Assembly: GCA_902798585.1 (NCBI GenBank)
Contig: CADBXF010000011.1
Coordinates: 1-64,000 of the forward strand
Length of the DNA: 64,000 nucleotides
Source: an uncultured Lachnospiraceae bacterium
GTDB lineage: Bacteria > Bacillota > Clostridia > Lachnospirales > Lachnospiraceae
Direction: 5' to 3'
Numbering within the stretch: position 1 is the first letter of the stretch; the number at the start of each line of letters is the position of its first letter. Below the pieces are notes generated by a model. The model worked only from the letters and a program-made list of their open reading frames with translations. It searched no databases and had not been told where the DNA came from. Positions 39,788 to 43,956 of the stretch are shown piece after piece. Both the position numbers and the translations under genes were made by a program.

Positions 39788-42691
39788 ATGAAGCGTTTAT
39801 CCAGAATCGCGATTGTATCGGTCGTTGTGCTGATACTGACGCAGACGGCAGGGCTCTTTCGGGCGCTGCCCTGTTTTGATGCTTCCGCTGCAGCATACCG
39901 CATCTCGGGAACCGTCACCGCCAATCAGCTGAATCTTCGAAAAGGTCCCGGGACTGCCTACGACAGGCTGGCCACGCTCAAGAAGGGCCACTCGGTGACC
40001 GTCATCGGAAGGGCGTCGTCCTCCGACGGCAAACAGTGGTATCAGGTTGAGACGACGGTCTCCGGAAAGAAGCTGACCGGTTATGTCTGGGCGGACTATG
40101 TAAAGACGACACAGACGGTACCGTCGGTGACACCTACGCCCAAACCGACGGCAACACCGAAACCGACGAACACTCCGACACCGACAATCACACCGGGGAC
40201 AGAGTATGCGGGCCGCATCGGAACCGTTACGGTGACGCGCATGAATGTTCGCTCGGGCGCTTCGTCATCGTATTCGATTCTCGGGAAAATATATAAGGGA
40301 GACACCGTAAAAATTCTTTCGGAAAGCAAAGATTCCAAGGGGCAGAAGTGGTACCGTGCGACGGTGACCGTCAGCGGGAAGAGCCGTGAGGGATATGTGT
40401 TCGCGGACTATATCCGCGTCTCAGCGCCGACTCCTACGCCGACGAACACACCTACGCCGACCAATACGCCGACGCCTACGAATACGCCTGCGCCGACAAA
40501 CACGCCGACTCCCACCAACACGCCGGTGCCTACGAACACGCCGACAGCGGCGCCCGTGAAGCCGACGGAGGTTCCGATTCGCGAGACCGGCGCTACCGTC
40601 ACCGGTTCCGCCTTGAATATGCGCGTAGGACCGGGAACGGAGTATCCGAAGGTGACGAAATTTTCCGCGGGACAGAAACTCAAAATACTCTCGTTTGCGT
40701 ATGAGGCGGACGGAGAGATCTGGTACGAGGCGACGGCGGAGGTCGGAGGCTGTACCTATCGCGGTTTCGTCTACGCCGATTATGTAAAGACAGACAAGGC
40801 ATATCCGCTGGTGGAGAGCAACAACAGCGGAGCCATCCGATATGCGGAGCCGGAGACCGGAGCGGCCGCCGTCGGGCTGCGCGCCTCCTTTGCGCACAGC
40901 TATGAATATGCAGGGGTCGTGACCGGAAGCGCTGTCAATCTGCGCTCCGGCGCCGGAACCGGCAACGCCTCGCTTGTGAAGCTTCCGAAAAATCAGACCG
41001 TTCTGATTTGCGGACAGGCTTCGGTGGGAAGCGTCATCTGGTATCATGTCGCAGCCGACCTGAACGGAAAGCACTACGAGGGCTATATGTCCGGGACTTA
41101 TGTGCGTACCGATTACTCGGGCGGCGGAATCTGGGCAACTGTGACATCCGGCGATATTACGCTTGTTAAGGAGCCGAAGAGCGGAGCTTCCGCGGTCGTC
41201 GGGAAGGACGGAAAGAAGCGTGTTCTTGCGGCGAAGGAAGCCGTATATTGCACCGGCGAGGAGCAGGAAGGCGAGACAAAATGGATGCTTGTCGTGGCGA
41301 AGGACGGAGATTCCACGGTGACCGGCTATGTGCAAAGGCAGAAGCTTGTGTGGTCGGACGCCGGAATACCGGAGCCGTTTTCACCGGTGACCGATGAGGG
41401 CCGTTTTGCGGAGACACTCCGCAAGGAGGGTTTCCCGGAGAGCTATATTCCGGGACTTATCGCACTTCATCGCCTGCATCCGCAGTGGAAATTCAAAGCG
41501 TATCAGACCGGCATCGACTGGAGCGCGGCAATCACGGGCGAGAATACCATCGGAAACAACCTGATTGAATCGAGCGCCGGCCGCGACTGGCTGTCGTACG
41601 CTGAGGGCTCATACGACTATGCCACGGACAGGTTCCGCGCATTTGACGGAAGCAGCTGGGTGATGATTTCCCCGGCGGGGTTGCAGTATTACATGGATCC
41701 GCGCAACTGGCTCACGGAATCCGCGGTATTCATGTTCGAGGATCTTCGTTATGACCCGGAGACGCAGACGCTTGAAGGCGTTGAGAACATACTGAAGGGC
41801 ACGGCGATGTACCGGACGACCTTCACCTACACGGATGATTCCGGCGCGAAGAAGACGATTTTGTATTCGCAGGCCTTCATGGATGCCGCGGAGTACAGCG
41901 GCGTCAATCCGTATCATCTTGCGTCGCGTGTGAAGCAGGAGGTCGTGACGGGCTCCGGATTTTCCAAGAGCGCCACGGGAACGGTTGAGGGCTTCGAGGG
42001 CTATTACAACTTCTATAATATCGGGGCGTACAACTCGACCGCCGCACTCGGCGCAATCAAGAACGGTTTGAAGTTCGCAAAATACGGCGGCACCGGCAGC
42101 GCGCTCAACAAATCCTGCATGATTCCGTGGAACAATCGCTACCGCGCGATTGTCGGCGGTGCCTACTATATCGGCAGCACCTACATTAACCGCGGACAGA
42201 ACACAATCTATCTGCAGAAGTACAACGTGACTTCGACGACGCGGTACGGGCATCAGTATATGTCCAATGCGCGCGCTCCGAAGTCCGAGGCCTCGAAGGT
42301 GTATCAGGCGTACAAAAACATGAGCGGATACAACGAGATGGCACTGACATTTTCCATACCGGTATATAAGAATATGCCGGAGACCCCCGTTGCGGAGCCT
42401 TCCGATGTCGGATGTCCGAACCCGTACCTGTCCTCGCTCAAGATTACGACGGCGTCCGGAACGGCGGTTACCCTGTCTCCGGGCTTCTCCGCCGACGGAA
42501 TGCAATACACGGTGAAGGTTCCCAAGGGGACCGGATCGGTAACGGTTTCGGCGACGCCGGTTTCCTCCAAAGCGAAGATTGCGGGAACGGGAAAGCACAC
42601 CGTCTCAGGAGCGTCGACGCGCATCGTGCTGACGGTCACGGCGGAGAGCGGAGCAGTGACCAATGTGATTGTCACGGTGAAGACAGAGTGA
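39788..42691 (+). CDS. Secreted cell-wall hydrolase: multiple SH3b domains, glucosaminidase domain, cadherin-like C-terminus
   Basis: A 967-residue exported protein. A signal peptide (about 1-36) precedes SH3b-type domains at about 40-105, 141-208, 265-335 and 372-440, with a more diverged fifth at about 445-520. Typical phrases are LNLRKGPGTAYDRL, MNVRSGASSSYSIL and LNMRVGPGTEYPKV. The first two are followed by Thr/Pro/Asn-rich linkers, the second built from TPTPTNTP repeats. Residues 535-860 form an N-acetylglucosaminidase domain (GH73/LytD type; LASRVKQEVVTGSGF supplies the likely catalytic Glu). The last 90 residues resemble a cadherin-like beta-sandwich (YLSSLKITTASG, YTVKVPKGTGSVTVSA). 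It probably trims peptidoglycan during growth or separation. Confidence 0.88.
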   Translation: MKRLSRIAIVSVVVLILTQTAGLFRALPCFDASAAAYRISGTVTANQLNLRKGPGTAYDRLATLKKGHSVTVIGRASSSDGKQWYQVETTVSGKKLTGYVWADYVKTTQTVPSVTPTPKPTATPKPTNTPTPTITPGTEYAGRIGTVTVTRMNVRSGASSSYSILGKIYKGDTVKILSESKDSKGQKWYRATVTVSGKSREGYVFADYIRVSAPTPTPTNTPTPTNTPTPTNTPAPTNTPTPTNTPVPTNTPTAAPVKPTEVPIRETGATVTGSALNMRVGPGTEYPKVTKFSAGQKLKILSFAYEADGEIWYEATAEVGGCTYRGFVYADYVKTDKAYPLVESNNSGAIRYAEPETGAAAVGLRASFAHSYEYAGVVTGSAVNLRSGAGTGNASLVKLPKNQTVLICGQASVGSVIWYHVAADLNGKHYEGYMSGTYVRTDYSGGGIWATVTSGDITLVKEPKSGASAVVGKDGKKRVLAAKEAVYCTGEEQEGETKWMLVVAKDGDSTVTGYVQRQKLVWSDAGIPEPFSPVTDEGRFAETLRKEGFPESYIPGLIALHRLHPQWKFKAYQTGIDWSAAITGENTIGNNLIESSAGRDWLSYAEGSYDYATDRFRAFDGSSWVMISPAGLQYYMDPRNWLTESAVFMFEDLRYDPETQTLEGVENILKGTAMYRTTFTYTDDSGAKKTILYSQAFMDAAEYSGVNPYHLASRVKQEVVTGSGFSKSATGTVEGFEGYYNFYNIGAYNSTAALGAIKNGLKFAKYGGTGSALNKSCMIPWNNRYRAIVGGAYYIGSTYINRGQNTIYLQKYNVTSTTRYGHQYMSNARAPKSEASKVYQAYKNMSGYNEMALTFSIPVYKNMPETPVAEPSDVGCPNPYLSSLKITTASGTAVTLSPGFSADGMQYTVKVPKGTGSVTVSATPVSSKAKIAGTGKHTVSGASTRIVLTVTAESGAVTNVIVTVKTE
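40430..40560 (+). repeat. Coding repeats for the TPTPTNTP linker
   Basis: Short 12-24 bp units reading as Thr-Pro-Thr-Asn-Thr-Pro follow one another with many synonymous changes (acgcct, acacct, acgccg). The synonymous drift shows selection on the protein, not on the DNA. Confidence 0.8.
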
Positions 42692-42718
42692 TGCGACAGG
42701 AAAAATAAAATGACAACG

Positions 42719-42752
42719 AAAAAGGCCTCCCGATGAACGGGAGGCCTTTTTG
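42719..42752. terminator. Bidirectional terminator of the wall hydrolase and the minus-strand RNA
   Basis: AAAGGCCTCCCG (42721-42732) pairs with CGGGAGGCCTTT (42738-42749) around ATGAA, with A-run on the left and T-run on the right, so it works for both strands. Confidence 0.8.
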
Positions 42753-42907
42753 CGATATTTAGAGAAGAGAGAAAATAATCGGGAAATATGTCTTTGCATA
42801 TCCCGCTTAGCCAACAAAGTTAAAACGCATACTATATTGAGAGAGGGCACGCCCCCACGGGAGTTGCCTCGCAGCGCGAGGACGTGCTCGGAGAATTTCA
42901 TGCTGAC
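42719..42907 (-). ncRNA. Candidate structured small RNA, about 190 nt
   Basis: A consensus promoter (42914-42942, minus strand) points into a stretch without a credible gene that ends at a strong terminator. On the minus strand the RNA could form an outer stem GAGCACG / CGTGCCCTC enclosing the hairpin CCTCGC-GCT-GCGAGG and a small CCC/GGG hairpin, followed by a single-stranded AU-rich part (GTTTTAACTTTGTTGG) and a stem GGGATATG / CATATTTCCC. Size, promoter and terminator would suit a 6S-type RNA, but I could not confirm the family's long rod structure, so the class stays open. The plus-strand ORF covering part of it has no ribosome site and an atypical composition. Confidence 0.5.
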
Positions 42908-42913
42908 TTGCAT

Positions 42914-42942
42914 ATACTACAACCGACATAAGCAAGTGTCAA
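42914..42942 (-). promoter_or_regulatory. Consensus promoter of the candidate small RNA
   Basis: On the minus strand: perfect TTGACA (42942-42937), 17 bp spacer, TAGTAT (42919-42914). The remainder of the gap, 42943 to 43121, is A+T-rich and shows no gene. Confidence 0.65.
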
Positions 42943-43121
42943 CAGACCAAATTTTCAATTTTTTTGAAGTGCGAAAAAAGTGCAAGAAAATACGACGAAA
43001 AATCGCAAAAATTAATGTTGGACGATGCGAAGCTACATCATACGGTATAATAAAGTTATACGAAAGAATAATAGTTTAAATCTACGCAGTACAGAAAATA
43101 GGGGCGGGAAAGACATTTTTC

Positions 43122-43233: not shown

Positions 43234-43956
43234 ATGAAAGTCATCGTATGCAAAAATTATGATGAAGTATCCGCAAAATCCGCGGAGATTGTTGCAGAGG
43301 TTATGAAGAAGAAGCCCAATGCCGTGCTCGGTCTTGCGACCGGTTCCACGCCGGAGGGTATGTATGCGAAGCTCGCCGAGATGAACAAGGCGGGCGAGAT
43401 TGATTTTTCGCAGGTTACAACGGTAAATCTGGATGAGTATTATCCGATCAGCCCCGACAATGACCAGAGCTATCGGTATTTCATGAACAAGAATCTGTTC
43501 GACAAGGTCAACATCGACAAGACGCACACGCATGTTCCGCAGGGAAGTGCAGCGGACGGCGAGGCTGAGGCGAAGAGATACGAGGCGTTTGTACGCTCCC
43601 TCGGCGGTGCGGACATCCAGGTGCTCGGCATCGGAAGAAACGGTCATATCGCATTTAACGAGCCCGACGACGAGCTTGTTCCGGTTACGCATGTCACCGG
43701 CCTTACCGAGGATACCATCGACGCCAACGCGCGCTTCTTCGCAAGCGCAGCCGATGTTCCCACGCACGCACTTACGATGGGTATGGGAACGATTCTCTCC
43801 GCGAAGAAGATTATCATTCTTGCGAACGGAAAGAACAAGCACGACGCTGTGGCTAAGATGCTCAAGGGAACAGTAACCACGAGCTGCCCGGCATCGTTCC
43901 TCAACCTGCATGACGATGTTGTTCTCGTGTGTGACGAGGATTGCTACAACGGTTAA
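43234..43956 (+). CDS. nagB: Glucosamine-6-phosphate deaminase
   Basis: Converts glucosamine-6-phosphate to fructose-6-phosphate and ammonia, the catabolic exit of amino sugars. The 240-residue protein shows GLATGSTPEGMYAKL, catalytic Asp in VNLDEYYPI, GIGRNGHIAFNEP with the His, and the C-terminal MGMGTILSAKKI. It lacks the extra C-terminal segment of the allosteric enterobacterial enzyme, as usual in Firmicutes. An AAAGGAG site precedes the ATG. The next genes are glmM and a hexosamine kinase-like gene. Confidence 0.96.
   Translation: MKVIVCKNYDEVSAKSAEIVAEVMKKKPNAVLGLATGSTPEGMYAKLAEMNKAGEIDFSQVTTVNLDEYYPISPDNDQSYRYFMNKNLFDKVNIDKTHTHVPQGSAADGEAEAKRYEAFVRSLGGADIQVLGIGRNGHIAFNEPDDELVPVTHVTGLTEDTIDANARFFASAADVPTHALTMGMGTILSAKKIIILANGKNKHDAVAKMLKGTVTTSCPASFLNLHDDVVLVCDEDCYNG

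Follow-up and report, generated by a model that had tools for sequence, protein, structure and literature searches.

The window (the whole 64,000-nucleotide stretch of DNA analysed, taken from the 2.59-Mb genome G000) carries on its minus strand, between positions 42716 and 42942, a sigma-A promoter that leads into structured non-coding sequence ending in a bidirectional terminator (Table 1). The promoter boxes of this small RNA (sRNA) give 10 of 12 matches, and the terminator also serves the convergent gene because T runs are present on both strands. An earlier note on this DNA had claimed such a promoter and a strong intrinsic terminator, and both were found as described. The sRNA gene lies between a convergent gene for a secreted wall protein and a divergent nagB-like gene, after which a phosphoglucosamine-mutase-like gene comes next. 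Upstream of the sRNA promoter a further block is conserved in all 11 genomes that carry the element, with a consensus near TGACGTAAATNTTGCATTTT; lying between the divergent sRNA and nagB, it represents a candidate regulator site, this function being putative. The earlier note had additionally proposed an operator in the form of an inverted repeat (TGACTTGC / GCAAGTGTCA) over the promoter. The repeat is present, at 42904–42911 and 42932–42941, but its role as an operator found no comparative support, as the aligned upstream sequences of the relatives showed no evident counterpart.

Table 1. Features of the sRNA locus and its neighbours (positions in the window).
Feature	Position	Strand	Evidence or remarks
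Convergent neighbour: secreted SH3-domain wall protein	39788..42691	+	Pfam SH3_3; synteny, fixed neighbour in relatives
sRNA transcript, ~190 nt	42716..42907	-	5' end inferred, ~7 nt past the -10 box; T run of the terminator as 3' end
Bidirectional intrinsic terminator, 14-bp stem	42719..42751	.	T runs on both strands; covarying pairs
Seed C, AUUUUCUCUCUUCUC, invariant	42762..42776	-	Complement in group 1 pilT leader and in pilD-pilM spacer
Stem 2, sequence variable, hairpin kept	42780..42805	-	Compensatory changes between relatives (hand alignment)
Seed B, CCCUCUCUCAA, invariant	42837..42847	-	Complement in group 2 pilT leader and at minor-pilin start codon
Stem 1, GCACGUCC...GGGCGUGC, with small apical hairpin	42847..42887	-	Compensatory changes
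Motif A, unpaired 5' element, GAAAUUCUCC (GAAAAUCUCC in the other subgroup)	42890..42899	-	Alignment; unpaired probability 0.42-0.86
-10 box TAGTAT, 17-nt spacer to -35 box	42914..42919	-	TAGTAT/TAGAAT/TAAGAT in relatives
-35 box TTGACA, sRNA promoter	42937..42942	-	Kept in 11/11 genomes
Conserved block upstream of sRNA promoter, own copy GTCGTATTTTCTTGCACTTTT	42976..42996	-	Alignment of relatives
Divergent neighbour: glucosamine-6-phosphate isomerase family, nagB-like	43234..43956	+	Pfam; synteny

Homologues of the element were identified by blastn in 10 congeners, and a covariance model trained on all 11 copies (the own one and those of the 10 congeners) recovered the same 11 of 22 genomes sampled from one rumen Lachnospiraceae genus, with E-values from 1e-17 to 1e-25 and nothing convincing elsewhere among these 22. 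Among 299 Lachnospiraceae genomes, in which the best 10 candidates per genome were scored and weak homologues could therefore escape, the model returned the window's own copy alone; two borderline matches of this family-wide search (E ~0.06-0.07) were discarded as the motifs were absent. A pattern scan of ~85,000 species genomes yielded 10 contigs, all of them from Lachnospiraceae MAGs that apparently represent the same relatives, several being of rumen or forestomach origin, while viral contigs and plasmids gave no match. All 11 carriers retain TTGACA with a spacer of 17–18 nt. In the carriers examined the element is flanked by the SH3-domain wall protein gene on one side and by nagB on the other, or lies beside glmM where nagB was not found, and genomes without the sRNA are also without this arrangement of the SH3-domain gene and nagB.

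The transcript comprises, from 5' to 3', GAAAWUCUCC, stem 1 (GCACG...CGUGC), seed B, the variable stem 2, seed C and the terminator, and its consensus fold consists of two hairpins with CU-rich single-stranded linkers. The CU-rich motifs (CCUCUCUCAA in B and AUUUUCUCUCUUCUC in C) are conserved throughout the carriers, seed B being identical in 11/11 and seed C likewise except for its first base (A in 10/11), and both seeds are mostly unpaired by prediction. The 193-nt RNA folds better than 200/200 dinucleotide shuffles (z = -4.8), while after removal of the terminator the z-score is -1.5 and 18/200 shuffles fold equally well; most of the signal thus stems from the terminator, and single-sequence folding is therefore weak evidence. 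It is conservation, rather than folding of the single sequence, that settles the reality of the RNA gene. The earlier note had proposed an alignment of relatives as a check for covarying pairs, and compensatory changes were indeed found. In the stems included in the test (stem 1, its apical hairpin and the terminator; 26 pairs), 95.7% of cells pair and double changes occur in 12/26 pairs; the covariation score of 0.317, against 0.203 for shuffles, was reached by 0/500 shuffles, a control that leaves relatedness in. Slid registers, a control that removes relatedness, drop to 38-61% paired in every case below the true one. Compensatory changes in stem 2, such as U-A/C-G and G-C/U-A, were read from the hand alignment. 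The RNA gene, its structure and its conservation, together with the predicted openness of the seeds, are in this way established directly.

The conserved sequence could in principle belong to a short mRNA for a small protein, and an open frame does run through the motifs in some genomes (MKFSEHV...GVPSLN in the window). Such a reading is extremely unlikely, as the spacing of the conserved blocks is 0, 1 or 2 modulo 3 depending on the species, stops occur in frame, a ribosome-binding site is absent ahead of any shared start and the substitutions track base pairing, not codons. No conserved protein was identified among the carriers, and the earlier statement that no credible protein lies here is upheld by the unkept frame and the in-frame stops.

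At the curated gathering scores of Rfam 15, neither the window nor any of eight homologous loci matched a family. Relaxing the threshold to E = 10 produced 17 Rfam matches at the region, with neither 6S nor RsaE among them; one of these, a weak match to Phe_leader (30.7 bits against a gathering score of 55), was dismissed since its alignment lies mainly over the terminator hairpin. The earlier note had suggested a 6S-type RNA, a suggestion that did not survive the scan with the 6S covariance model that it had itself proposed: RF00013 has no match in the region even at E = 10. The true 6S RNA of this genome was located at G000:C11:81374-81553 (E = 8e-15), on the same contig and outside the window, and 6S was found in 58/61 genomes searched. 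A length of ~190 nt and a terminator are what the element shares with 6S RNA, whereas its sequence, fold and genomic position all differ; the long irregular helix of 6S, with a central bubble that mimics an open promoter, is absent and two hairpins stand in its place. A polymerase-binding role as 6S RNA, or as a paralogue of it, may thus be considered virtually impossible. Conversely, the conserved promoter, covarying stems, unpaired motifs, terminator and fixed locus, combined with the absence of a reading frame and of an Rfam family at the gathering threshold, strongly support the claim of an undescribed small RNA. The accompanying idea of a new class is overstated, since the RNA would behave like known base-pairing sRNAs with C/U-rich seeds. 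It is a genuine sRNA family, new to Rfam and restricted to one clade, of a functional kind that is already known.

All 22 genomes were searched for exact complements of seed C (GAGAAGAGAGAA) and of seed B (TTGAGAGAGGG). Beyond the RNA gene itself, pilT (identified by TIGR01420, E = 1e-129) was the sole gene returned in more than two carrier genomes, namely in six (through seed B in G014, G008, G020 and G019, and through seed C in G002 and G009). Inspection of the pilT leaders located a complement in 11/11 carriers as opposed to 0/8 non-carriers, and in the carriers its position is shared, at 71-76 nt ahead of the AUG. The tract reads GAGAAGAGAGA(G)A in group 1, which consists of the window's own species, G002, G006 and G009, and (UUG/CA)GAGAGAGG(G/C) in group 2, the other seven carriers; it pairs with seed C in the four species of group 1 and with seed B in the seven of group 2. 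The longest exact match in carrier leaders is 9-12 nt, a length reached by 0-5/1000 shuffled leaders, in contrast to 5-6 nt in the eight non-carrier leaders, as attained by chance in most shuffles. This complementarity is again a direct result. In a pilT tree the carriers form one clade (support 100/100), and the co-occurrence of the sRNA and its target sites therefore counts as one evolutionary event. The four species of group 1 form a supported subclade nested among group 2 (98/94), which is consistent with a single switch of the complement in the pilT leader, from seed B to seed C.

The pilT tract is located in a conserved hairpin region of the leader, ~15-38 nt from the inferred mRNA start in leaders with a readable promoter, leaders assigned to a wrong upstream TATACT having been left out of this distance. 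When the site was blocked in silico, the predicted exposure of the pilT Shine-Dalgarno sequence shifted slightly and inconsistently between species, with the 5' end mis-set for some leaders, a result that favours neither activation nor repression of pilT. The eight genomes without the sRNA have a different, simpler pilT leader. The leader of the carrier clade contains a conserved structured 5' region (GGRAGCC...GGCUUYC arms, a UCGG hairpin and a AUGCGCAAAA stretch) that is absent from other species, and this leader may itself be subject to regulation. In G008, a second gene for a PilT-like ATPase has a 12-nt match to the seed C region in its upstream sequence.

Two further pilus loci carry complementary sites. 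Exact complements of seed C, 10-20 nt in length, are present in the pilD-pilM spacer of 4/7 carriers compared to 0/9 non-carriers; the longest single match is that of G006, with 20 nt exact within a 26-bp duplex (one G-U, -46 kcal/mol), while matches of 10-12 nt occur in the window's own genome, G014 and G008, and a clear site is absent from this spacer in G004, G010 and G019. Additionally, the start codon region of a minor pilin gene (PilV/ComGE-like), AUGAGAGAGG, offers 9 nt that pair with seed B in 7/7 carriers versus 0/9 non-carriers. This site was recognised in six carriers first, and in the seventh (G006), located after the prediction had been made, it was again present. The other protein identities rest on PilM_2 (E 7e-11), a PilC-like GspF match (E 1e-107) and type IV pilin N-termini, whereas the prepilin peptidase (pilD) was named from its sequence pattern, NCBIfam giving no match.

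The background of chance matches was assessed by a scan for exact matches in an 18% sample of the own genome (464 kb). On both strands of this sample, outside the RNA gene, seed B matches over at least 9 nt 13 times and seed C over at least 10 nt 22 times, so that a match in any given 100-nt leader is expected with a probability of the order of 1e-3. The pilus category was noticed after the fact; pilT is the top recurrent match of an unselected search, and the pilM match is the longest. Sites that match as well or better do exist in the own-genome sample, for example at C1:148875 and C5:27507, and since other genes also match, the pilus is possibly not the sole target and further targets are likely. 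The first of these sites (G000:C1:148875-148896) is the strongest exact seed C match of the sample (15 nt), lies immediately upstream of a terminator-like stem that follows an aminotransferase-like gene and is possibly a 3' UTR sponge site. A further target may exist in the sister genomes G009 and G002, where a gene for a secreted protein (MRIFGKGR...) is preceded by a 12-nt seed C complement, ~32 nt ahead of the gene start. The adjacent nagB gene was evaluated as a target of motif A (seed A) and rejected, as it offers 5-7 bp at the Shine-Dalgarno sequence and ranks 360/388 by duplex energy in a ranking without pilT and pilM.

These background matches bear on the question of whether the RNA, while a real trans-acting sRNA, is a broad regulator of many purine-rich ribosome-binding sites, with the pilus accounting for some of its dozens of matches and not for its principal role. 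Seeds B and C are of low complexity, and together with the UCUCC motif near the 5' end they have the appearance of generic anti-Shine-Dalgarno sequences; weak matches to many purine-rich sites are therefore to be expected; other perfect matches of 10-15 nt, upstream of a membrane sensor gene at C5:27507 and in the 3' region at C1:148875, and the Shine-Dalgarno-proximal match of the secreted protein gene in G002 and G009 point the same way. On the other hand, neither the pilT nor the pilM site coincides with a Shine-Dalgarno sequence, and sites are kept across species at three distinct pilus loci while no other exact-match gene extends beyond two sister genomes, which renders a mainly broad role rather unlikely. 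Even less probable, to the degree that we attach little weight to it, is a protein-binding decoy whose CU-rich motifs bind an RNA-binding protein, with the pilus complementarity secondary or accidental. Invariant unpaired pyrimidine motifs could indeed serve as protein sites, but a decoy leaves unexplained why homologous pilT leaders complement seed B in one subgroup and seed C in the other, as well as the 26-bp match in the pilM spacer.

The reading that we prefer, and hold to be probable, is that the element encodes a trans-acting sRNA of ~190 nt, with its own promoter and terminator, that tunes type IV pili by base pairing with pilus mRNAs. It possesses what would be expected of such an RNA: an intergenic location with a promoter and an intrinsic terminator of its own, a covarying conserved structure without a conserved reading frame, and conserved unpaired seeds with complementary sites kept across species (pilT 11/11, minor pilin 7/7, pilM spacer 4/7). 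The predicted connection with type IV pili is well supported. According to the proposed mechanism, the two stems would hold the CU-rich seeds B and C open for pairing with purine tracts in type IV pilus mRNAs. Three targets are predicted: in the pilT leader, the hairpin region close to the 5' end (~74 nt ahead of the AUG); in the PilV/ComGE-like minor pilin gene, the start codon; and, between pilD and pilM, the tract in the spacer. We infer pairing in the cell, and its outcome, from this complementarity: for the minor pilin the most likely outcome would be repression by covering of the start codon, while for the pilT and pilM transcripts it would be altered stability or folding, because these sites lie away from the ribosome-binding site. 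A more elaborate version, which we put forward tentatively and regard as doubtful in its entirety, would have one dedicated sRNA balance pilus assembly against retraction: it would lower assembly by covering the minor-pilin start codon and pairing in the pilM region, and protect the mRNA of the retraction motor PilT near its 5' end, with the pilT site having been exchanged within the clade, from one that pairs with seed B to one that pairs with seed C. If the proposal is right, rumen Lachnospiraceae would have a concrete post-transcriptional switch for their surface filaments that can be put to the test, and a target site would have moved between the seeds of one sRNA within a genus.

Among known systems, multi-seed C-rich sRNAs that act on Shine-Dalgarno regions include LhrC of Listeria and IsrR of Staphylococcus. 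Their design is akin to that of the sRNA described here, although they are multicopy or iron-regulated families of other genera, while the present sRNA is without an Rfam match. RoxS/RsaE of Bacillus and Staphylococcus is likewise a trans-acting Firmicutes sRNA with several unpaired C-rich regions, and the comparison is invited by the CU-rich seeds of our sRNA and by the location of its predicted sites, one covering a start codon and another close to the 5' end of an mRNA. The two differ in their seeds (CCCCU as opposed to CU repeats), locus, stems and predicted targets. RoxS/RsaE has several unpaired UCCC-like motifs; the sRNA described here does have unpaired invariant motifs, although these are CU repeats (UCUCC, CCCUCUCUC and UUUUCUCUCUUCUC). 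No sequence or covariance-model match to RoxS/RsaE was obtained at the region up to E = 10. In B. subtilis, RoxS prevents some mRNAs from being translated and shields another at its 5' end (PMC5419742). The sRNA proposed here would resemble RoxS in this respect, for which RoxS would serve as a precedent for both modes within one sRNA. The literature searched contained no report from Clostridia of a small RNA that pairs directly with mRNAs of type IV pili. In Clostridioides difficile, a c-di-GMP riboswitch controls type IV pilus genes. This is similarly an RNA-based control of type IV pili in Clostridia, but the riboswitch is a cis-acting metabolite sensor, whereas the sRNA described here is a separate gene whose product would act in trans.
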